DNA of 22,553 nt, from IMG/VR virus record IMGVR_UViG_3300027971_000239, positions 1 through 22,553 of that record; one strand, given 5' to 3'. Positions 2,693-20,557 of this stretch are shown one piece after another. The DNA comes from a virus. Under the pieces are notes generated by a model, which was not told where the DNA came from, searched no databases, and saw only the letters and a list, made by a program, of their open reading frames with translations. Position 1 is the first letter of the stretch, and every line of letters begins with the position of its first letter. The position numbers and the translations under genes are program-made.

Positions 2693-2926
2693 TCATCCTC
2701 GCCACCCCTGCTCAATCTGGCCGTCCTGAAGCCACGTCCTAAGCGCGCGCTGCGCCTCGCCCAGGCAGGCATACGTCGACCAAATCTGCTCTCTGAGCTG
2801 TGTCTCGCCAGGTGCAGTCGACTGCCAGCGCATCATCAAATCTGCACCGACCTGGTCGAACGCCTGCGCAAGCAAGGGGTCCTCGAGCAGCCGACGCGCA
2901 TGGTTGCCACGCTCGATATCGCTCAC
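2693..2926 (-). CDS. Small conserved head-module protein of unknown function
   Basis: 77 residues, helical and Arg/Gln-rich, with the core DLMMRWQSTAPGETQLREQIW. Small proteins with an LLxxPLxxxAFxxxxxxxxxxW(Q/R)xT pattern are common beside portal genes of podoviruses, but I know no assigned function. The start codon is GTG at 2926-2924, overlapping the portal stop as GTGA, so it should be translated by ribosomes finishing the portal gene. That coupling makes it a real gene despite its size. It is followed by a 69-bp gap before the AVPE-repeat gene. Confidence 0.7.
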   Translation of the reverse strand: MSDIERGNHARRLLEDPLLAQAFDQVGADLMMRWQSTAPGETQLREQIWSTYACLGEAQRALRTWLQDGQIEQGWRG

Positions 2927-5019
2927 TGGTAGGCCCCCGGATCAACCTGCTGCTGCATCGCCTGCTGCTGCTCGCGGTCGCGGTCCATCATTGCCTTGAT
3001 CTGCGCCGTGTCGACCGTGGCCGCGTACTTCAGCTCGATCTCACGCGCTCGCAGCGCCGTGTCGGCCTCGATCCGGTCACGCTCACGGTCGTCTGCGGCA
3101 CGCGCCTTGTCGCGCTCCAGCTCAAGCTTCGCGGCATTGATCGCGATGTCAGCCTTGATCTTCTCGGCCTCGACCTGCGCCAGGATCTGCGCGGGATCAG
3201 GCTGCGGCTGAGATTGCGGGGGCTGCCAATCCGGCGGCACCGCCGTGAAGAATTGGCTCGCGTCTCGGAAGCCGCTGAGTTCGACGATCTTGGCTAACGT
3301 CGTGCGGTACTGCGCGAGGCTCACCATAGGATTGCCTGGCCCCATCTGCGCAAGGATCTGCTCTTGCTTCTGCGAGATAGCCGTCAGCACCGCGATGCGC
3401 TCTTCGTTGCTTGTAGCGCTAAGCGCCACATTCACGTCGACGTCCATGTCGGCATTCCAGACGCGGGGATCGACCTGCACGAACTGCCCGCGCATGCGGA
3501 TCATCATCGGGCGGTCCTGGTGCTGAACGAACATGCGCAGCATGCCCCTGAAGAGCCGCTTCAGACCCGTCTCGGCGAATATGCGCGCGACCAGCTCAAT
3601 GCGGCCCTGCGCCGCACTGATCGTGGCCGCCACCGCAGCACGCGTGCTGGACTGCAAGGCATCCGCGTTCAAGCCTTGGCTCGCGCGAGACATGCCGGTG
3701 CGCGTCTCTTTGAGTGTGTCCAGGTACTCGATAAGCGGGAACGCGGCCTGCCCCACAAATGGCGTCGTGAGCGGCTGCACCATTCCAGGCGCACGCATCC
3801 GCACGATGCCACCGGTCTGGACATTCATGACGTCGGCAATGTTCACCTGGCCGTCGACGACTGCCGTCCGTGGGTGGATGCTCTGACTGAGGCTGTCCAG
3901 GACGTCGCGGAACAGTTGGCTCTTAACACGCTGAATGTCCATCAGCTTGTCGGCCTCGGACTGGCCGACAAACGTGTGCGGCTCGGGGTCCGGACAGAAC
4001 GCCGCGAACGGGATCTCGCTTGCGCCCTCGACGGCGACGACGTTGTACGCGCCGCCGATCGTGCAGACCTTCAGCAGCTCCGCGATGCCGTCGCCGTCCC
4101 GGTCGAACCGGATATAAGACTCAACATACGTCACACGCTGCGAGGCGTCGTCCCGGCGGTCTGCTTGCGGCCACAGGAGCGGGTTACGGACCTGCGCCTG
4201 AAGCGAGTATTCAAGTTCGTCCTCGTCGCCGCCCGCGTGCTCCCTGACCTCTTCCTCGTCATACCCCATCGCGACCAGGTCGCTGACCGTGAGCGATTGA
4301 CGGTGAGCAACCAGGCTGGCGCTATCCAGGTCTCGTGCGCGACGGTCGACCAGGAATTCCTCGGACGGGACGGCAGCGACACGGTACCTCGTCGATTCAT
4401 CGACCTTTCTAATTCTGAGGTCGAACGTGATCTGGCCGGTCTCGTCTTGCTTTTCCTGGAGGCTCGTGACCTCGACGCCCGGCTCGTTGAGAAGGACCGC
4501 AACGCTTTGCTCGTCCAGTTGCGTGTAGGCGTACTCGCTGATCTTGCGGTCGGTCTCGTGCCACCACTTGACGACGCCAGTCTTGCGTAGGAGAGCGTCC
4601 TTGAAGACGTCCCAGAGCACGCTGAAGCCCGGGTTCTGCTTCGTGAAGACGTAGTGCGCAAGCTCGGTGGCCTGCTCGGCGAACTGGACATCTTCGGGGC
4701 CGATAGGTACGTACTCAGCGATGCGCTCGGCGCCCATAAAAATCCGCATCAGCGGCGGCATCATGCCGATCACCGCATCTCTCACGTCGGTGCTGACGTG
4801 CAGGCTACGCCCGGCTTCGGTGTCGTCGCCCTCAAATAGCTCGCCACGGTAGTACCGAGTGGCTTTGACGCGGTCCTTGGAGACCTGCTCCTCAAACTCG
4901 ATCGCGTCCCGGATCTCGGCAGCAACAGCAGCCTGAAGCGCTCCCGACGCGGCGGCATCGCTTACGTCGTCATCTCTGACGGCGTATTCGTCGCTCTCGT
5001 CGAAATCGCTGATATCCAT
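2923..5019 (-). CDS. Portal protein, P22-like podoviral family
   Basis: 698 residues, close to the usual size of P22-type portals (about 700-725). It forms the dodecameric ring at the unique head vertex through which DNA enters and leaves. The N-terminus is acidic. The core contains RVKATRYYRGE, the patch DVRDAVIGMMPPLMRIF and later a VVKWWHE segment, all typical of the family. The C-terminal 100 residues form a long Gln/Glu/Arg-rich helix (barrel-like region). It is the first gene of the leftward structural operon, with a good promoter just upstream (TTGCGA and TATAAG, 17-bp spacing). The start at 5019 has only a weak ribosome binding site. The large terminase gene, normally its upstream partner on the same strand, diverges from it here. 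Confidence 0.87.
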   Translation of the reverse strand: MDISDFDESDEYAVRDDDVSDAAASGALQAAVAAEIRDAIEFEEQVSKDRVKATRYYRGELFEGDDTEAGRSLHVSTDVRDAVIGMMPPLMRIFMGAERIAEYVPIGPEDVQFAEQATELAHYVFTKQNPGFSVLWDVFKDALLRKTGVVKWWHETDRKISEYAYTQLDEQSVAVLLNEPGVEVTSLQEKQDETGQITFDLRIRKVDESTRYRVAAVPSEEFLVDRRARDLDSASLVAHRQSLTVSDLVAMGYDEEEVREHAGGDEDELEYSLQAQVRNPLLWPQADRRDDASQRVTYVESYIRFDRDGDGIAELLKVCTIGGAYNVVAVEGASEIPFAAFCPDPEPHTFVGQSEADKLMDIQRVKSQLFRDVLDSLSQSIHPRTAVVDGQVNIADVMNVQTGGIVRMRAPGMVQPLTTPFVGQAAFPLIEYLDTLKETRTGMSRASQGLNADALQSSTRAAVAATISAAQGRIELVARIFAETGLKRLFRGMLRMFVQHQDRPMMIRMRGQFVQVDPRVWNADMDVDVNVALSATSNEERIAVLTAISQKQEQILAQMGPGNPMVSLAQYRTTLAKIVELSGFRDASQFFTAVPPDWQPPQSQPQPDPAQILAQVEAEKIKADIAINAAKLELERDKARAADDRERDRIEADTALRAREIELKYAATVDTAQIKAMMDRDREQQQAMQQQVDPGAYQ

Positions 5020-8309: not shown

Positions 8310-8440
8310 GCTCTTACCTCCCATGCCTCTGCGGCTTGCGTACAGCCTGCGTGAGGCGTTGTTTATCGTGCCTTGCTACGAGGGTAGCTTAGATTGCCTT
8401 TCAATCGATTCCAGAGGCTCCGACGATTCCAGCACCTTCC

Positions 8441-8544
8441 GACACGCGGACACGCGGGACACGCGGGTCCCCCTAAACTCCCAGATAAAATAAAATTCAC
8501 TTTGAACTCTAAGGAGGTCCGCGTGTCGCGCGTGTCCGCGTGTC
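8441..8544. other. Candidate replication origin: inverted triplets of GACACGCG around an AT-rich core
   Basis: The left arm (8441-8470) has three consecutive GACACGCG boxes starting at 8441, 8449 and 8458. The right arm (8516-8544) has three CGCGTGTC boxes, at 8520, 8529 and 8537. The arms form a nearly complete 29-30-bp inverted repeat around a 45-bp AT-rich stretch (8471-8515). Iterons plus an AT-rich unwinding element, beside a primase-helicase gene, is the layout of a phage or plasmid origin. The right arm contains the primase stop codon. An operator or a recombination site are alternatives. The rest of 8310-8440 shows no gene. Confidence 0.6.
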
Positions 8545-10948
8545 AGCGGAATGACTCGTTGCTACCTCTCATGACCTCTGACCTGATGCGTTCCGCTTCG
8601 ACGCCTTCCCACTTGTCGTGGTTGCGCAGGCTCCAGACCCGGTAGCGCTTAGAGCCGATCTCGATCGTTCGCCCCTTCCCTGACGAATCCCGAAGCACCT
8701 GGGCGCCGGCGTCTGTCATGGCGTGGCGCACGGCGTTGGCGGCGAGCTTCCCGCATTGCTCCTCGAGGTACTGGACGGCATCGGCTGGTGTGATCAGGTC
8801 GCTTCGCCAGTCCTCGATGAGCTGGTCGGCTGCACGCCTGACGCCTGACTTGCTGGCGTCGACGGCCACTGACTTAGCGGCGCTCATGGGCGGGCGCTCG
8901 CCGGGCTTGAAGGCTGAGATGTCGCGCACCCGCAGCCAGTGGGCGATCGCTGCGATGAATGCCGGGTCGGCCAGCGCCTGGTACAGCCGTTCGTAGTCGG
9001 CTGCTGGCCTCGGTGGCTCGTTGTGCACGACGACCCGCCAGCGCCGGTCGTTGTCGGCCATTGGGATCGCGTTCTCGTGGTTGCTGAACACGAGCCAGCG
9101 GCAGACGTTCTTCTCGAGCACGGTGCGCCCGTACTTGGGGTTGATAGCACGCACCTCGGCGTTCAGGAGTGACTTGAGCCTGTTGATGTGCCGGTAGCCG
9201 GCCTCGCCGCCTTCCTGGATCTCGTCGACCATCGCCAGCATGGCCTCGGAGAGCTGGCCGTTGAATTGCGACTCCAGCAGGGACGCCAGGTCGACGTTGG
9301 GTGCGACGTGCCCACGCCAGACGCGGGCCAGGACAGACGCCAGCCAGTTGCGCCCGGTGCCGGTGTGGCGAGCGATCATGAGCCAGCCGAAGTGCGGCAG
9401 CACGCCGGGCTGCTGCTCGATGTGGGCGAGCCAGTCGAGGAAGACTGCGCGCTCGGTCTCGTCGGCGATCAGGTACGCGACGTGCTCAAGGAACACGCCG
9501 ACCGCCAGGGCCGAGTTGGCTACGGGTGCCCGCTTGAAGTCGCGCCAGGTGTTGATCGATGGGTGCCCTTCCGGTCCCATGCAAAAGACGTCCTCGCCCG
9601 GCATGAAGGTGCGCCGTGCGACCGTAAGCCGTGACGGGTCGGCCAGCCAGCCGTTGATGGCCGGGCGCATCTTCTTGCCGTCGGCTGAGGCTGTGACGCT
9701 GGCTGCGAACGTGTTGCGGGCGTCGGACAGTGGCAGGGAGAGCCTTGGGTTGTCCAGTGCGCAGACCTGGGAGCCGTCCTGCACGAAGACCAGCTTGCGC
9801 AGCATGTCGTCTTGGCTCATGACCGTAGGCAGCGGGTCGATGCTGAGCCGCTGGATGTCGGCGTTGGCGTCTTTCTGTTCCTGCCGGCGGGCTTGTCTGA
9901 GGGCGTTTGCCGTGGCCTGGGACTTCGAGGCGCGTGCGTCTGTGGTGACCTGCGCCTCAAACGCCCCAAAGCCGTCAGGCGGCTCCCATCCTGATTCTCT
10001 GGCCGTCATCTTGAGCGTTCCCAGTGTCACCCCGCCGGGCTTGTCGGTGAAGCTGCGCCACTTGTAGAAGAAGTCGCGCTCGTTGTGCTTGGGGCTGGTG
10101 GCTGACCATGCGGACACGGTCTCGAATGAGCCACCGGAACTCTTGGCGGCCATGCAGATGCGCAGCCAGTCGTCGTAGCCCAGGTCGGCGTTGACGATAT
10201 GGCGCAGCATCTCCTCGACCTGGTTGTCCGCGACCTTCTCGTGCGCGGTCATCGGGCGCTCGACCTCGACCTCATGCGAATCGACCGGGGTCTCGATGCC
10301 CGCCGACGCCAGGAGTTCGCGCAGGGACCGCACGCCAATCAGGTTCCCGCTGATCTCGGTGCCTGTCAGCATGACGCTGGTGCGTCTGGAGCGTGGCATC
10401 CCGAAGATTTCGATCTCTTGGCCGTTGCCCAGGTCGATCTTGGGCGGCATGGTGGCGTCTGCTGGCGCCATGACCCAGATGTGCGCGCCCTTCAGCGAGT
10501 GGGACCGCTCGTACAGGTGCCCTGCGGCCTTGGCGATCTCGATCAAGCGCTTGATGCGGATATCGGCCGGGCCGCCTGAGCGCTTCATGTCAAGGTCGAT
10601 GCCAACCAGGACCAATCCTCGTTGCTCGATGGGGCGGTGCATGACGACGCCCCAGTAATCACCTGGCGGGGCCTTGCCGACCATCACCGCTACCGCGTTC
10701 AGCAAATCGCTCAACGGCGTGCCGGCCGAGACGCCGCTGGCCTTGATTGACTGCGGCACCTTGTCCATCTCGCCCGGCTTGTTGGCTTTCGGCGCCAGCC
10801 TGAAGCCGCAGAACATCGCATCTGCGGCGAGCTTGGCGATTGCAAGCGCCGTGGCGTATGAGGCCGTTGTGGCCTTGCCTGGGAAGGCAGCTTCCATCGT
10901 AGAATCCATGTGTTGATCGCGGCTGTACCCGCGTTTAGCATTGCTCAC
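8543..10948 (-). CDS. Primase-helicase (AEP-like primase, PriCT-2, SF3-like ATPase)
   Basis: 801 residues. N-terminal primase-polymerase features: GIDLDMK with Asp118/Asp120, SLKGAHIWV (His156) and EIEIFG (178-183). A PriCT-2-type domain covers about 244-320. The C-terminal helicase has a Walker A-like RHTGTGRNW (527-535), Walker B LAMVDE (571-576) and a sensor strand FSNHENAIP (621-629). Arg replaces the usual Lys in the P-loop. It should unwind and prime phage DNA at a nearby origin. It follows the Cro-like gene by 28 nt in the leftward early operon. The GTG at 10948 lacks a properly spaced Shine-Dalgarno. An ATG at 10909 (788 residues) is an equally plausible start. Confidence 0.85.
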   Translation of the reverse strand: MSNAKRGYSRDQHMDSTMEAAFPGKATTASYATALAIAKLAADAMFCGFRLAPKANKPGEMDKVPQSIKASGVSAGTPLSDLLNAVAVMVGKAPPGDYWGVVMHRPIEQRGLVLVGIDLDMKRSGGPADIRIKRLIEIAKAAGHLYERSHSLKGAHIWVMAPADATMPPKIDLGNGQEIEIFGMPRSRRTSVMLTGTEISGNLIGVRSLRELLASAGIETPVDSHEVEVERPMTAHEKVADNQVEEMLRHIVNADLGYDDWLRICMAAKSSGGSFETVSAWSATSPKHNERDFFYKWRSFTDKPGGVTLGTLKMTARESGWEPPDGFGAFEAQVTTDARASKSQATANALRQARRQEQKDANADIQRLSIDPLPTVMSQDDMLRKLVFVQDGSQVCALDNPRLSLPLSDARNTFAASVTASADGKKMRPAINGWLADPSRLTVARRTFMPGEDVFCMGPEGHPSINTWRDFKRAPVANSALAVGVFLEHVAYLIADETERAVFLDWLAHIEQQPGVLPHFGWLMIARHTGTGRNWLASVLARVWRGHVAPNVDLASLLESQFNGQLSEAMLAMVDEIQEGGEAGYRHINRLKSLLNAEVRAINPKYGRTVLEKNVCRWLVFSNHENAIPMADNDRRWRVVVHNEPPRPAADYERLYQALADPAFIAAIAHWLRVRDISAFKPGERPPMSAAKSVAVDASKSGVRRAADQLIEDWRSDLITPADAVQYLEEQCGKLAANAVRHAMTDAGAQVLRDSSGKGRTIEIGSKRYRVWSLRNHDKWEGVEAERIRSEVMRGSNESFR

Positions 10949-13847: not shown

Positions 13848-14428
13848 AACTCACACTTAAATCGACAGACCAGCACCCGATCATCCTCGGCTCGTTTCCA
13901 GACCTGTGGCGCCCCGGCGAGTTCAAGGGCGAGCCGACTAACTACAGCGTGCAGTTGCTGATCCCGAAGGGCTCGCCAGCGCTGGCCGAGCTTGAGGCGG
14001 CGATCAAGTCGTTTGCCAAGGACCAGTGGGGCGACGCCGCGAAGATGGCTGTCGAGAAGCAAAACGCCAGCAATACGAAGGTCTTGCGCGATGGCGACGG
14101 CATTGACGGCATGACCGCCAGCGGCTCGGCTAAGCCTGGCTGGGCCGGCCACATGCGGATCAAGGCGTCAAGCAAGTTCGCACCGAAGGTCGTGGACCGT
14201 GCGTTGCAGGAGCTGACCGAGGCGAGCGGCAAGCCGTATGCAGGATGCGCCGTCAGTGCGCAGATCGAGCTGTACGCCTTCAAGGACAAGAAGGAGATGG
14301 GCACCCGCCTGTCAGCCGTCCAGTTCTACGCAGACGGCGAGCCGTTTGCAGGCGGCGCCGGTGGTGGCGTTGACCTTGATGCGTTTGGGCCTGCGGTTGT
14401 GGTGGCAGCCGACAGCGACTGGGGTTGA
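13844..14428 (+). CDS. DUF2815 phage single-stranded DNA-binding protein
   Basis: 194 residues. The beta-rich opening (KLTLKSTDQHPIILGSFPDLWRP) and the segments NYSVQLLIPKGSP, AGHMRIKASSKFAPKVVD and AGCAVSAQIELYAF are characteristic of DUF2815, a family with an OB-fold related to phage ssDNA-binding proteins of the T7 gp2.5/Enc34 type. It would coat ssDNA produced by the adjacent DUF2800 nuclease or at the replication fork. The C-terminus is acidic (ending ADSDWG), like other phage SSBs that recruit partners through acidic tails. It starts at an ATGA overlap with the nuclease gene. Confidence 0.88.
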   Translation: MKLTLKSTDQHPIILGSFPDLWRPGEFKGEPTNYSVQLLIPKGSPALAELEAAIKSFAKDQWGDAAKMAVEKQNASNTKVLRDGDGIDGMTASGSAKPGWAGHMRIKASSKFAPKVVDRALQELTEASGKPYAGCAVSAQIELYAFKDKKEMGTRLSAVQFYADGEPFAGGAGGGVDLDAFGPAVVVAADSDWG

Positions 14429-14509
14429 GCCAGGCCACCGTGCTGAACGGAGCCAGCCTGGGCGTCGTTACCAGACTCATGCCTCTCCGCGACGTGACCA
14501 GGCCGCTTT

Positions 14510-14531
14510 GCCGGTGGGCGTTATCACCGGC
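14510..14531 (+). other. Stable hairpin in the spacer after the SSB gene
   Basis: GCCGGTG (14510-14516) and CACCGGC (14525-14531) form a perfect 7-bp stem with an 8-nt loop. The following ACCTAATTCTT is too poor in T for a confident terminator. It may stabilise or process the mRNA 27 nt before the next start. The remaining spacer 14429-14509 shows nothing else. Confidence 0.4.
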
Positions 14532-14557
14532 ACCTAATTCTTGATTGGAGAGATTCG

Positions 14558-14767
14558 ATGAAACAGCAAGACAGATTCAGGCGCTCCACGACCACGGGTT
14601 ATGTGGGCGCACCAGGCAACTGGACCGGCACGCCCCGGACCTTTACCGATCGCTGGTCGGCGATTCACCAGGAAGAGCAGAACCGCCTGCCGACGGGGAT
14701 CATCGTCGGCTCACTGCTCGGGGCGGCGGCCTGGCTGTCGCTCGTGCTGCTTGTGCTGAGCTGGTGA
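14558..14767 (+). CDS. Small single-span membrane protein
   Basis: 69 residues. The N-terminal 45 are polar and Arg/Thr-rich (MKQQDRFRRSTTTGYVG). The C-terminal 22 (IIVGSLLGAAAWLSLVLLVLSW) form one hydrophobic helix ending at the stop, a tail-anchor-like layout. The ATG has GGAGAG 8 nt upstream. It lies between the SSB and an unknown protein in the early operon, well away from visible lysis genes, so a holin role is doubtful. A membrane-located exclusion or host-takeover function is equally possible. No family recognised. Confidence 0.6.
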   Translation: MKQQDRFRRSTTTGYVGAPGNWTGTPRTFTDRWSAIHQEEQNRLPTGIIVGSLLGAAAWLSLVLLVLSW

Positions 14768-14830
14768 GACAGCAGGGCTTACTTTTAAGACATCAGTGAT
14801 TTCAACAAATACCGAGAGAGAGAACAAATC

Positions 14831-15430
14831 ATGACCATGCAAACAGCCCGCGTTGTCGTTAAAGGCATCGCACCCTTGCTTACGAACAACCCGCAGACGG
14901 TTGATCGATTCAATACCTACGCCCGCAAGATGAAGGCCATCAACGACAAGAAGACCCGTCGCACTGATGACGATTACCTCGAACTGCGCGACCTTGAACT
15001 GGCGTCGAAGATTTACTTCGATGACGAGATCGGCGCATACATCCCGTCGACATGGGTCAGCGAAGGCATTGCTGGCAGTGCGTTCTCAACGATCAAGGTC
15101 GGTCGCGACAAGATTCGCGGCAGCCTGTTCGTGATCGACCAGAAGATCAAGCTCGAATATCAGGACATGGGCAAGGTCAAGGCGGCGGCAGACATCATCG
15201 CTAACCCGCAATTCCGGCACACGATCGCGCTGCCGCAGGGTCAGGTTCGCGTCGTCAAGTGCTTCCCGATCTTCCACAAGTGGTCGTTCACCGCGAACGT
15301 CGAATTCGACGACTCGGTGCTGGATCGTCAGATGCTCACGCGCGTCTGCCAGTCGGCCGGCAAGTACGTCGGATTCGGCGACCTGCGCCCGACGTTTGGT
15401 CGCGCAGAAGTCGAGGTGAAGAATGGCTGA
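14831..15430 (+). CDS. Conserved-looking early phage protein; RAMP/Cas7-like fold possible but unproven
   Basis: 199 residues. It begins with a beta-strand/turn (ARVVVKGIAPLLTNNPQTVD), has a basic helical stretch (25-45), a central KIRGSLFV strand, and ends with a Gly-rich motif, KYVGFGDLRPTFGRAEVEV. The alternation of strands and Gly-rich loops reminds me of RAMP-type RNA-binding proteins, but this is an impression from sequence style. GAGAGAGA precedes the ATG. It overlaps the next gene by 8 nt, and the unusual structured array lies just downstream of that gene, so an RNA-binding role is worth testing. It could instead be a recombination accessory protein. Confidence 0.65.
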   Translation: MTMQTARVVVKGIAPLLTNNPQTVDRFNTYARKMKAINDKKTRRTDDDYLELRDLELASKIYFDDEIGAYIPSTWVSEGIAGSAFSTIKVGRDKIRGSLFVIDQKIKLEYQDMGKVKAAADIIANPQFRHTIALPQGQVRVVKCFPIFHKWSFTANVEFDDSVLDRQMLTRVCQSAGKYVGFGDLRPTFGRAEVEVKNG

Positions 15431-15884
15431 GCGCGGCGAGGCGATGTCCGAGTTCTTCGACGAGCTTGATGCGCGAGGGTTGCTGGACTATGGCGCGGTG
15501 ATCGAGGGCCCGCTCGTGCGCGAGTTACTCGACATTGAGTTGCCCGAGATCGGCCGCAAGGCCGACTTCGACCGGGCCGCCCTGGCCGAGCTTTCGGCGA
15601 TCGGATATGTGCGCGATCAGCTGCTGAAGAACGGCAAGTACCTGGCCGGCACGGCTGGCGGGTATCGGGTGCTGCTGCCGTCTGAGAACGCCAAGCAGGT
15701 TGATGCGTTGATGGAGGCGGCCGCCCGCAAGTTGTCGCGTGCTCGTGTTCTGAACGCGTCGACTCCGAGTGAGTTTCGCGGGCAGATCGACCAGCAGGAG
15801 GCGCGTATCTCGATGAACCGCAGCGGGATGTTGAGCCGGTTCCGGCCCGGCGGTTCTGCTGGCGATCAGCCTGCTGCGAACTAA
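15423..15884 (+). CDS. Unknown phage protein coupled to the preceding gene
   Basis: 153 residues. An acidic, helical N-terminus (FFDELDARGLLDYGAVIEG) leads into REL-rich helices and a short middle domain (YVRDQLLKNGKYLAGTAGGYRVLLPSENAKQ) with a basic, Arg-rich C-terminal half (about 98-143). The middle part resembles the 'wing' of a small nucleic-acid-binding domain, but no family was recognised. GAGGTG lies 6 nt before the ATG at 15423. A second ATG at 15444 is less likely. It overlaps the 199-residue gene by 8 nt, and the hairpin/pentamer array starts 13 nt after its stop, so it is the gene physically closest to the array's 5' end. Confidence 0.65.
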   Translation: MAERGEAMSEFFDELDARGLLDYGAVIEGPLVRELLDIELPEIGRKADFDRAALAELSAIGYVRDQLLKNGKYLAGTAGGYRVLLPSENAKQVDALMEAAARKLSRARVLNASTPSEFRGQIDQQEARISMNRSGMLSRFRPGGSAGDQPAAN

Positions 15885-15971
15885 CGAACTAATGATTGTG
15901 CATGGCGGCGCATTGGAGCGCACAGCATTGCAGCGCAAGTCACAGCATCGCAAGGCAGCGCAGCGCATTTC

Positions 15972-16024
15972 AAAGCAACGCGGCAAGCCCGTCATGCGGG
16001 TTTGTCGAGTCGTTTTGGCTCAAG
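15972..16024 (+). repeat. Array module core 1
   Basis: AAAGCAACGCGG at 15972-15983. Hairpin 1 arms CAAGCCCG (15984-15991) and CGGGTTTG (15997-16004), loop TCATG, with one G-U pair. Hairpin 2 GAGTC/GGCTC with loop GTTTT (16007-16021), one U-G pair. Confidence 0.88.
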
Positions 16025-16087
16025 GACAGGGCAGTGCATGGCAGCGCAAGGAAGCGATTGGCGTCGCAGCGCAGCGCATCGCAACTC

Positions 16088-16140
16088 AAAGCAACGCGGG
16101 TTATCCGTTATGCGGATATCCCGAGTCGTTTTGGCTCAAG
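16088..16140 (+). repeat. Array module core 2
   Basis: AAAGCAACGCGG at 16088-16099. Hairpin 1 arms GTTATCCG (16100-16107) and CGGATATC (16113-16120), loop TTATG, one mismatch. The closing pair changes to GG/CC (others GG/TC). Hairpin 2 is the same as core 1. Confidence 0.88.
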
Positions 16141-16223
16141 GGCATGGCAATGAAGGGCACCGCAGTACATCGCATAGAAGCGCAGCGGACAGCACCGAGC
16201 GGCAAGCCAGTGAATGGCATCGA

Positions 16224-16276
16224 AAAGCAACGCGGCAAGCCCGTTATGCGGGTTTGTCGAGTCGTTTTGGCTCAAG
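16224..16276 (+). repeat. Array module core 3
   Basis: AAAGCAACGCGG at 16224-16235. Hairpin 1 arms CAAGCCCG (16236-16243) and CGGGTTTG (16249-16256), loop TTATG. It is identical to core 1 except for one loop base. Hairpin 2 is the same. Confidence 0.88.
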
Positions 16277-16344
16277 GGCAACGCATGTCAAGGCATAGCA
16301 AGGCACCGCACCGCACCGCATCGAAATGCGTAGCACGGCACCGC

Positions 16345-16401
16345 AAAGCAACGCGGACAGTCTGTTCAAGCAGCAGATTGTTCGAGTCGTTTTGGCTCAA
16401 G
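16345..16401 (+). repeat. Array module core 4
   Basis: AAAGCAACGCGG at 16345-16356. Hairpin 1 arms ACAGTCTG (16357-16364) and CAGATTGT (16374-16381) around a 9-nt loop, entirely different stem bases yet all paired (one G-U). Hairpin 2 is the same as in the other cores. Confidence 0.88.
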
Positions 16402-16474
16402 TGCATTGCACCGCAATGCAGTGCTGCGCACTGCGGCGCAATGCAGCGCATCGCAATTCACAGCTTGGCAATGC

Positions 16475-16530
16475 AAAGCAACGCGGTCAGTTCATTCGGT
16501 GAACTGATCAAGTCGTTTTGACTTTTTGAC
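16475..16530 (+). repeat. Array module core 5, with terminator-like second hairpin
   Basis: AAAGCAACGCGG at 16475-16486. Hairpin 1 arms TCAGTTCA (16487-16494) and TGAACTGA (16500-16507), loop TTCGG, perfect. Hairpin 2 changes on both sides to AAGTC/GACTT, keeping the GTTTT loop and pairing, and runs into TTTTT. It could act as a weak terminator or attenuator 13 nt before the DUF3310 start. Confidence 0.85.
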
Positions 16531-16542
16531 AGAAGGAAAATC

Positions 16543-16830
16543 ATGACGAAACCATTTGATCCAATTAATCCGCAGCATTACAGGCAAGGCGACATCGAGG
16601 CCATCGATTGCATCGCAGCAGCAACTGCCAACAAGTCCGGCATCGAGGCGGTCTGTGTTGCGAACGTCGTGAAATATTTATATCGCTACGAAATGAAGGG
16701 CGGTCTGGAATCCGTAAAAAAGGCGCAGTGGTACTTGAGTCATCTGGTCGCCCACCTCGAAGAACGCGAAGAGCCTGAAGACCAAGATCCGCGCTCGATG
16801 GGCTGGATCGGCGATGACGGGCGGCCCTGA
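16543..16830 (+). CDS. DUF3310 protein, T7 gp1.7-like nucleotide kinase family
   Basis: 95 residues. The family signature is clear: DPINPQHYRQGDIEAIDCIAA (5-25), then CVANVVKYLYRYEMKGG (38-54) and the helix ESVKKAQWYLSHLV. DUF3310 includes T7 gp1.7, a small nucleotide kinase that phosphorylates dGMP and dTMP for phage DNA synthesis. Whether this short member is active cannot be judged. AGAAGGA lies 6 nt upstream of the ATG. The gene starts directly after the last hairpin of the array, so its translation or transcription could respond to that structure. Its stop overlaps the next ATG as TGATG. Confidence 0.87.
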   Translation: MTKPFDPINPQHYRQGDIEAIDCIAAATANKSGIEAVCVANVVKYLYRYEMKGGLESVKKAQWYLSHLVAHLEEREEPEDQDPRSMGWIGDDGRP

Positions 16831-19115: not shown

Positions 19116-19348
19116 GCCTGATGCTGACCTGCAAAGACATCGCCGCTCGGCTCCAGATGAACGAAGTCTACGTGCGCGACGTGCTCTCGAAGCGTTCAGA
19201 CTTCCCGCCGGCGTACCGGATTGGCGGTGCGCTGCGGTGGGTCGAACTGGACTTCGACGAATGGCTGGCTAGTAAGCAGCTCAAGCCTGCGGTGCGAAAG
19301 CGTCGTCAACCTAAGCGCACTGCAATCGACTCGGCCGGCTCCCTGTAG
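19112..19348 (+). CDS. Excisionase-like (AlpA/HTH_17-type) DNA-binding protein
   Basis: 78 residues from the GTG at 19112, which overlaps the preceding stop as GTGA. An ATG three codons later is an alternative. LTCKDIAARLQMNEVYVRDVL (5-25) is a MerR-type helix-turn-helix, followed by the wing and motif FPPAYRIGGALRWVELDFDEWL (31-52), diagnostic of the AlpA/excisionase group. The basic tail (KPAVRKRRQPKR) would add DNA contact. It lies next to and tail-to-tail with the integrase (43-bp overlap), so it most likely directs integrase toward excision. Transcription of one gene would produce antisense RNA to the end of the other. Confidence 0.8.
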   Translation: MSLMLTCKDIAARLQMNEVYVRDVLSKRSDFPPAYRIGGALRWVELDFDEWLASKQLKPAVRKRRQPKRTAIDSAGSL

Positions 19349-20289
19349 TACACAAGCAGCGAATTCAGATCACGGTGCCCGATCATGCGTGCAAGATCGT
19401 GGATCGACAGGATGCGAGCGAGCCTTGTAACAGCGGTGGCTCGCCCGTCGTGGAATCGAAAGCCCGACAGCCCTGCCGCATCACGCGCACGACGAAAGAT
19501 GGTCGACAGCTCGTCAGCGTCAATGTGAAACACCCTGCCCTGCTTGATGGGCCTGCGCACCTGGAGCAAGCGCTTCTTGCGCAGCACGTCGAGCAACTCG
19601 ACGGCCTTGGTTGAGAGCGGCACCGACCGGCTAGAACCGTTCTTCGTTTTCGGAAGATGCGCTACCCTGCCGGTGATATCGGTCCACCGCAGGCCGGTTA
19701 GCTCGCCGGCACGCATTCCGGTTTCAAGCGTGAGCAGCAGCGCGACCGCAACCTCATGGCCGACGGTCGTCACCTCGCCAGCGTAGCCAAGCTGCGCCAG
19801 CATTGCGTCGACTTCAGCGGCTGAGATCAAGCGTTCACGGTGCGGCGCGTCTGACGGCTTTTTGACGTCGGCCAGCGGGTCGCGCGAGATCCAGCCCCAT
19901 TCGAGCCGGGCGCGCTTCAGCACCGAAGCGATAAAGTTCATCTCGCGCCGCACGGTGGATGCTGAGACCTCCTGCATCCGCTGATCACGCCAGGCAGCGA
20001 TCACGGCCGGAGTGACCTGATCTAGCCGGGTGTTCGCCCAAGAGTAGCGCCTTGCGATCCTTGCTCGCGTCGCATCGCCCTTGGTTCTCGGCTCGAGCGC
20101 ATCGAGCGCATCAAGCGCATCTGAAAGCGTCTGTCGGGTACGCTGGTGCTCGCCAGACAGGATCTCAGCCTCGCGTGCGATCGCCCAATCCTCTGCCTCT
20201 CTGCGGGTCGGAAAGCGCTTCGATTCACGCACGCCTGCACGCGCAATCTCAGCACGCCACAGATCGCCAACCTTCCTGATCGATGCCAC
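19306..20289 (-). CDS. int: Tyrosine integrase
   Basis: 327 residues from the GTG at 20289, chosen because GGGGGAA lies about 7 nt upstream. An ATG at 20331 adds 14 residues without a good ribosome binding site. The N-terminal domain opens VASIRKVGDLWRAEI (arm-binding type), followed by a SAM-like core-binding domain. Catalytic residues are Arg193 (ETGMRAGEL), Lys216 (PKTKNG), His280/Arg283 (FHDGRATA), His305 (MIGHRD) and Tyr314 (LLVYYRE), a complete set. It joins attP to the host attB. The upstream spacer carries repeated TGGCGTAA boxes likely to be its arm sites. It overlaps the excisionase at the 3' end. Confidence 0.93.
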   Translation of the reverse strand: MASIRKVGDLWRAEIARAGVRESKRFPTRREAEDWAIAREAEILSGEHQRTRQTLSDALDALDALEPRTKGDATRARIARRYSWANTRLDQVTPAVIAAWRDQRMQEVSASTVRREMNFIASVLKRARLEWGWISRDPLADVKKPSDAPHRERLISAAEVDAMLAQLGYAGEVTTVGHEVAVALLLTLETGMRAGELTGLRWTDITGRVAHLPKTKNGSSRSVPLSTKAVELLDVLRKKRLLQVRRPIKQGRVFHIDADELSTIFRRARDAAGLSGFRFHDGRATAVTRLARILSIHDLARMIGHRDLNSLLVYYREPAESIAVRLG

Positions 20290-20557
20290 TGTTCGGTTCC
20301 CCCGGCGTAAATTCTGGCGTAATGCCAGCATGCGCCGGATTGTAAGTGCTTGTTTTTTATAGCGCCAGATTGTTACGCCAAACTGTGCGAATCTGGCCTA
20401 AGACGTTGATTTACAAGGGGAATATTGGCCTTTGCTGGTGCCCCGAGCGGGCACTGGATACCAAGCCTAGAGCCAGTCTTCAGGCGATTGGCGTAATTTC
20501 GACGGCACTCAGCTTGTACAGTCCCACACAATTTTTCGCATTATTTTCGATAAACGC
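20290..20557. other. Candidate attP region with integrase arm-type boxes
   Basis: This non-coding stretch between the integrase and the next promoter holds GGCGTAA at 20304-20310, TGGCGTAAT at 20315-20323, its inverse TTACGCCA at 20373-20380, and TGGCGTAAT again at 20489-20497. GCCAGATT (20364-20371) and AATCTGGC (20390-20397) are inverted repeats around the third box. A GC hairpin GTGCCC/GGGCAC lies at 20438-20454. Repeated boxes on both sides of a core are what tyrosine integrases use. The crossover core itself cannot be placed without the host site. Confidence 0.55.

Follow-up and report, generated by a model that had tools for sequence, protein, structure and literature searches.

The locus described here, two overlapping genes followed by an array of structured repeats, is very probably a phage VIPR (Viral Interference Programmable Repeat) system, in which Vipr-bound guide RNAs would read a target spelled by their variable NN dinucleotides and repress a competing element with the help of an accessory protein. 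It lies in a 22,553-nucleotide stretch of viral DNA (IMG/VR virus record IMGVR_UViG_3300027971_000239), the whole of which is called the window below. VIPR systems were described in a recent preprint (doi 10.64898/2026.04.26.720920; PMC13142463), the only paper on them that literature searches returned, as consisting of Vipr, an ancestral RAMP protein, together with vap genes and vrRNAs; the latter are phage-encoded RNAs of ~100 nt in which 9 to 16 YNNGG repeats precede a structured 3' tail, and their intergenic flanks are long (PMC13142463). All of the corresponding parts were present in the window: a Vipr-family RAMP protein, tandem pentamers made of a triplet and an NN dinucleotide, a structured 3' tail, and an adjoining vap gene. 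The features of the locus, all on the plus strand, are as follows.

14831 to 15430, plus strand: vipr homolog, 199 aa; predicted RAMP (Cas7-like) fold, with a G-loop, GFGDLRPTFGR, near the C terminus (phrog_4652, profile match to PDB 36pp, AlphaFold)
15423 to 15884, plus strand: vap-like accessory gene, 153 aa; predicted winged helix (residues 1 to 84) and long helices (AlphaFold, profile match to SUSP1 gp038)
15898 to 15977, plus strand: guide-like linker 1, 16 NNGCA pentamers, the last of which, AAGCA, is constant
15978 to 16021, plus strand: tail 1, ACGCGG, hairpin 1 (15982 to 16006) and hairpin 2 (GAGTC-GTTTT-GGCTC, 16007 to 16021); supported by covariation
16029 to 16093, plus strand: guide-like linker 2, 13 pentamers
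16094 to 16137, plus strand: tail 2, hairpin 1 (16098 to 16122) and hairpin 2 (16123 to 16137)
16140 to 16229, plus strand: guide-like linker 3, 18 pentamers with the most degenerate triplets; 5' end uncertain
16230 to 16273, plus strand: tail 3, hairpin 1 (16234 to 16258) and hairpin 2 (16259 to 16273); near-copy of tail 1
16276 to 16350, plus strand: guide-like linker 4, 15 pentamers
16351 to 16398, plus strand: tail 4, hairpin 1 (16355 to 16383) and hairpin 2 (16384 to 16398)
16401 to 16480, plus strand: guide-like linker 5, 16 pentamers
16481 to 16524, plus strand: tail 5, hairpin 1 (16485 to 16509) and hairpin 2 (AAGTC-GTTTT-GACTT, 16510 to 16524), both arms of which differ from those of tails 1 to 4

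A preliminary description of this DNA had placed the 199- and 153-residue reading frames, overlapping by 8 nt, directly 5' of the array, and these coordinates were confirmed. The array (15898 to 16524) comprises five guide-RNA-like units, each a linker of NNGCA pentamers (16, 13, 18, 15, and 16 in units 1 to 5) with a two-hairpin 3' tail. All five linkers stop exactly at the junction AAGCA/ACGCGG, after which the two hairpins follow. Within the 75 nt ahead of each tail, every GCA triplet (51/51) fell in one of the five possible registers (11, 9, 8, 12, and 11 in units 1 to 5; 0 in the other four registers), and the best pentamer run scored 22.5, compared to a maximum of 10.0 in 1,000 dinucleotide-preserving shuffles. 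Across the window linkers, the two NN positions were near random (entropies of 1.97 and 1.89 bits), in contrast to the GCA positions (0.58 to 0.74 bits). An Rfam scan of the window returned no family at its gathering score; the weak matches to the array were almost all to microRNA families, lay far below the cutoff, and were set aside. No sigma-70-like promoter was found within 14400 to 16700. By Pfam and PHROGs annotation, the array sits inside a replication/early operon, adjoining exonuclease and single-stranded-DNA-binding genes. Elsewhere in the window, the gene at 19306 to 20331, judged by its sequence, is presumably integrase-like, and the terminase and portal proteins resemble those of phages from Manatee Spring and of Sinorhizobium phage phiM5. 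A gap at 8440 to 8545, beside an 801-aa reading frame, holds three direct copies of ACACGCGG with inverted copies ~70 nt away, possibly an operator or an origin.

The 199-aa protein is, by profile match and predicted fold, homologous to Vipr, the RAMP component of VIPR systems. Its sole Pfam or PHROGs match was phrog_4652 (unknown function; 4e-54); the protein itself occurs in 129 of 50,697 phage records, chiefly those of Felix O1-like coliphages. When a profile of 30 relatives was searched against PDB sequences, a single entry was returned, 36pp ("SUSP1 Vipr protein"; E 2.2e-33; residues 3 to 197), which was identified by sequence only; the window and SUSP1 proteins share 25.5% identity over 192 columns. 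The preliminary description had called this protein RAMP-like in style, and the predicted structure bears this out: the AlphaFold model (pLDDT 92.3) matched Cas7/Csm3-type and other RAMP subunits in Foldseek, in a fold library reaching to April 2026 (41 chains at E ≤ 0.001, the best of them at 4e-5), and aligned to Cas7/Csm3-type RAMPs in VIA-align with Z of 9.4 to 11.7 in all 50 of the matches listed. The glycine-rich C-terminal stretch, GFGDLRPTFGR, is also as described there, and within it G181, G183, R186, and G190 were invariant across the 30 relatives. Among bacterial genomes, a pattern-based scan of 84,980 species gave 2 relatives, both in metagenome-assembled genomes, and 369 genomes of a single class, searched by profile, gave none beyond the search's own center genome.

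The 153-aa protein likewise appears, from its profile and model, to be a winged-helix-like relative of the SUSP1 accessory gene. Its profile matched SUSP1 gp038 at 1.2e-10 in a 12-sequence set and at 5e-9 among 548 frames; in the latter search, it picked out the vipr-adjacent gene of SUSP1, VpaE1, FSL SP-107, and LESphi2 (E 3.6e-9 to 2.6e-7), with a weaker match in Gordonia phage Trine. This likeness is visible by profile only, as direct pairwise BLASTP of the protein against vap genes returned nothing. Half of its aligned relatives (14/28) matched phrog_5926 (unknown function). The AlphaFold model (pLDDT 87.3) shows a winged helix and then long helices; since Foldseek found no match to it at E ≤ 0.001 and its best VIA Z was 8.0, to an Smc5/6 subunit, the winged-helix assignment is a weak call. 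Thus, of the fold searches proposed in the preliminary description, that with the larger protein recovered Cas7/RAMP structures, and that with the smaller gave weak matches only.

Co-occurrence of genes and array, which had also been proposed as a check, was evident across relatives. A sense-strand period-5 array (run score of at least 9, at most 1.5 kb from vipr) lay beside vipr in 36 of 42 loci, compared to 0 of 398 control strand-windows from other parts of the same records. The 42 loci were dereplicated from 55, with two truncated vipr genes (L129 and L130) excluded. The controls did not include the final partial window of any piece; of these ends, one (L153:15226-16110) has arrays and is the far end of the record that starts with the vipr gene of L110. 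Six loci had no scored sense array (L019, L092, L093, L099, L104, and L141); in all of these except L141, tails or hairpins were visible by eye with degenerate triplets. In L093, for example, hairpin units lie upstream of vipr (3351 to 4000), their pentamer triplets too degenerate for scoring. Antisense runs were seen at three loci, two being echoes inside sense arrays (the window and L018) and one a GGC run (L119). The GCA arrays were on the vipr sense strand in every locus with a clear array. Among homologs in viral contigs and phage records, arrays lay upstream of the gene pair, between the genes, or downstream, and array size and position varied between close relatives. Taken with the predicted fold and the SUSP1 Vipr homology, this linkage lends support to the earlier suggestion that the two proteins and the array would act as one ribonucleoprotein system.

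Several individual loci depart from the window layout. One contig (L117:4585-5071) has the order vipr, arrays of 20 to 27 pentamers, vap, with longer and different tails. In phiHSIC (L132) and LittleE (L134), vipr lies among structural genes but in the opposite orientation, as though it had entered as a mobile cassette, and in LittleE vap is directly behind it. Pseudomonas phage LESphi2 (L139; OQ594955.1), which is LES prophage 2 of P. aeruginosa, has vipr, a vap-like gene, and an array of the GGC type next to its CI repressor (2830 to 4076). Azospirillum and Bradyrhizobium plasmids (L141, L142, and L144) encode Vipr homologs with short GGC pentamer runs, those of L142 and L144 above the array threshold and that of L141 below it.

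The tails supported the view that the array is read, in sense orientation, as a structured RNA. The five window tails fold better than shuffles (z of −3.2 to −4.0); hairpin 1 has 10 to 12 bp, and hairpin 2 is GAGTC-GTTTT-GGCTC in four units and AAGTC-GTTTT-GACTT in the fifth. In 48 tails from 16 loci, 91.2% of hairpin 1 cells were paired, a percentage inflated because the tails were picked by requiring the stem (48 from 61, of which 51 were unique and 3 more were removed as near-copies of L094). The same set had 125 double-sided changes, compared to a shuffled mean of 40, and a hairpin 1 covariation of 0.741, compared to 0.261 when shuffled and at most 0.211 when slid; RNAalifold agreed. When tails were picked by pentamer register alone, the stem was present in 31 of 34, compared to 2% of shuffles. 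Arms of hairpin 2 were tabulated in 42 of the 48 tails. Four of the five window tails were flagged as terminator-like, with a hairpin followed by AGTCGTTTTG or AAGTCGTTTT. The exact 15-mer of hairpin 2 matched 11 viral stretches, all of them lacking a GCA array, and the gapped tail pattern matched 69, of which only six had arrays, as judged from the GCA-run scan and from identity to known records (L046, L054, L067, L070, L074, and L080). Both vipr and vap are encoded by all of the six except L070, a contig of 12.5 kb whose end comes ~0.95 kb after its array; this array has the same NN letters as an array of another record that lies 2.9 kb upstream of the vipr gene there. The hairpins, which the preliminary description had taken for caps or cut sites of a protein filament, would instead form the 3' tail of each guide.

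The dominant triplet was GCA in relatives of the window and GGT in SUSP1 and Felix-type phages; for the latter, the same pentamer scan returned GGT arrays in agreement with the publication. GGC was dominant in LESphi2, LittleE, Trine, and the Azospirillum plasmids. One locus (L127:5200-5424) has arrays of NNAGC pentamers, possibly a third dialect, and the most divergent Vipr (27.5% identity to that of the window). We set L119 aside as odd, since its upstream run is GCA but a stronger, GCC-like run lies downstream. A maximum-likelihood tree was built from 44 Vipr sequences; in it, the 32 GCA rows and L119 were split off by a 100/99 branch (length 2.35), with the ten GGY rows on the opposite side together with L127, whose branch was very long. 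Three positions (116 V/P, 143 K/R, and 192 A/F) separated the 33 GCA-clade from the 9 GGY-clade sequences almost completely. The triplet thus tracks the Vipr clade while the 5-nt step is unchanged, and therefore the constant letters follow the protein. Comparison across these loci reveals a structured repeat RNA that is coupled to a RAMP protein, on one strand, with a clade-specific triplet. A further, tentative proposal, to which we give somewhat less than an even chance, is that the constant triplet is an evolvable VIPR dialect, with a large and mostly uncultivated clade of NNGCA phages whose Vipr would be orthogonal to GGY and with NNAGC as a third dialect. The window and its kin in the NNGCA clade have guide-like RNAs with a two-hairpin tail, and the number of skipped target bases could differ between dialects.

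By the published account, the VIPR type is assigned from Vipr phylogeny, vrRNA architecture, and vap, and all seven types have GGY/NN "or a related consensus" according to the main text, which points to fig. S17 (PMC13142463). That related consensus may include other triplets, but "GCA" itself occurs 0 times in the main text. Going by the main text, then, the window locus looks like a VIPR system set apart by GCA in place of GGU/GGC. With the VIPR of Escherichia phage SUSP1 it shares a homologous RAMP protein, an accessory gene homologous by profile, pentamers with hypervariable NN letters, a structured 3' tail, and the placement of arrays next to the gene pair; both are carried by phages. It differs from that system in its triplet (GCA rather than GGY), in its tail of two consecutive hairpins (ACGCGG, hairpin 1, GAGTC, hairpin 2; the SUSP1 tail is reported to have a pseudoknot), in having five units all downstream of the genes, and in a Vipr from a separate clade; linker 3, with 18 pentamers, exceeds the published range of 9 to 16. 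On type II traits, the window vap resembles that of SUSP1, but in the Vipr tree the GCA clade is separate from the GGY sequences. Class 1 CRISPR-Cas Cas7/Csm3 filaments have in common with the locus the protein fold and subunits spaced along RNA; however, the units here are pentamer tracts and hairpins of varying stem sequence rather than near-identical repeats with unique spacers, the protein is small and single-domain (199 aa), and no cas genes were found by Pfam and PHROGs among 10 neighboring proteins. The guide-binding domain of Tas proteins is Nop-like, of another kind than the RAMP fold predicted here. Phage-associated tandem guide arrays and a single protein are features shared with TIGR-Tas (PMC12045711).

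By analogy with the published VIPR homologs, the window RNAs may have guide function, a one-base skip, double-stranded-DNA targeting, and repression. In published VIPR systems, the NN letters are reported to recognize double-stranded DNA with a one-base skip, and targets to lie in satellites and prophages (PMC13142463). Co-purification of protein and array RNA, proposed in the preliminary description, has been reported for the homologous SUSP1 Vipr and its repeat RNAs (PMC13142463; PDB 36pp). In the window, Vipr would bind each of the five guide RNAs, probably through one subunit at each constant GCA triplet, with the two-hairpin tail marking the RNA's 3' end. The variable NN letters are probably the guide sequence, a role that the preliminary description had not foreseen; jointly, the dinucleotides would spell a DNA target read noncontiguously, with one base skipped between them as in SUSP1, and pair with double-stranded DNA of a rival element. 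The ribonucleoprotein would then repress a gene in a competitor, whether phage, prophage, or satellite, assisted by the putative winged-helix accessory protein.

Searches for a natural target of the guides found none under any skip tried, which is unsurprising because the host is uncultivated. In viral contigs, there were 0 matches to the one-skip pattern of a Vibrio phage guide (20 letters) or to that of window guide 1 (18 letters). Patterns of 16 letters had 21 matches for window guide 5 and 5 for guide 3, but the best extended to only 9 of 14 further letters (25/30 in total) and was judged to be chance; the gene with this match has as its only relatives in the phage collection two Roseobacter phages. 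Guide 1 (30 letters, at most 3 mismatches) was matched in 0 of 399 genomes from the order of genome G034. When 155 guides were scanned against both strands of 3.9 Mb with skips of 0 to 3, there was no excess at skip 1 and no skip-1 match under E 0.01, the window and its relatives included. The strongest skip-3 match was an identical unmasked array, not a target, and a match of guide 2 (24/30; E ~0.02 before correction for 155 guides) was unconvincing. Comparing guides with each other for shared targets gave 0 matches at any skip. A codon-phase likelihood test preferred a constant phase, yet shuffled guides did equally well, in GGY systems too, and the test therefore has no power.

These searches bear on an improbable alternative, that the locus derives from VIPR but has been repurposed so that its RNAs control genes of the phage itself or one fixed gene of the host, not those of competing phages. 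Such a role would fit both the failure to find a foreign target and the placement of the array in a replication/early operon. However, the one-skip scan, in which the window and its relatives were included, returned no match under E 0.01, and the nearly maximal variability of the NN letters, together with the shifting size and position of the array among close relatives, is as expected for changing targets.

The preliminary description had listed three further readings, a sponge for a host regulator, an origin or packaging element, and an attenuator, each of which is now disfavored. Sponges usually consist of a repeated short motif with hairpins, as this array does, but that it titrates a host RNA-binding regulator is quite unlikely: the triplet varies with the Vipr clade (GCA, GGY, or AGC) at a constant period of 5, which points to the neighboring protein as the reader, and the array loci recovered by the tail pattern all hold vipr and vap, apart from the contig that ends soon after its array. 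Iteron-like repeats of a replication origin, centromere, or packaging site might be looked for among replication genes, and the ~5-bp period would suit half-turn spacing. Nevertheless, a DNA element would hardly account for GCA arrays that are sense to vipr in every locus with a clear array or for the varied position of arrays around the gene pair, and the covarying stem includes G-U pairs and therefore favors RNA, making this reading highly improbable. The terminator-like character of four of five tails is what a series of attenuators or terminators acting on the downstream operon would have, but an attenuator would need neither 13 to 18 in-register pentamers nor five units, and arrays frequently precede or separate the two genes; we consider its probability very low. 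We favor a VIPR system directed at a competing element.

VIPR is a newly reported form of RNA-guided DNA recognition, published only in 2026, proposed to be older than CRISPR, and probably used against competing phages (PMC13142463). A clade with another triplet means that the way a RAMP subunit grips its RNA can change without any change in the pentamer step, and residues 116, 143, and 192 are the protein changes to examine for triplet choice. The pairing of triplet and clade is a natural experiment in RNA selection by Cas7-like subunits. Should the dialects prove orthogonal, one cell could host several VIPRs without crosstalk.
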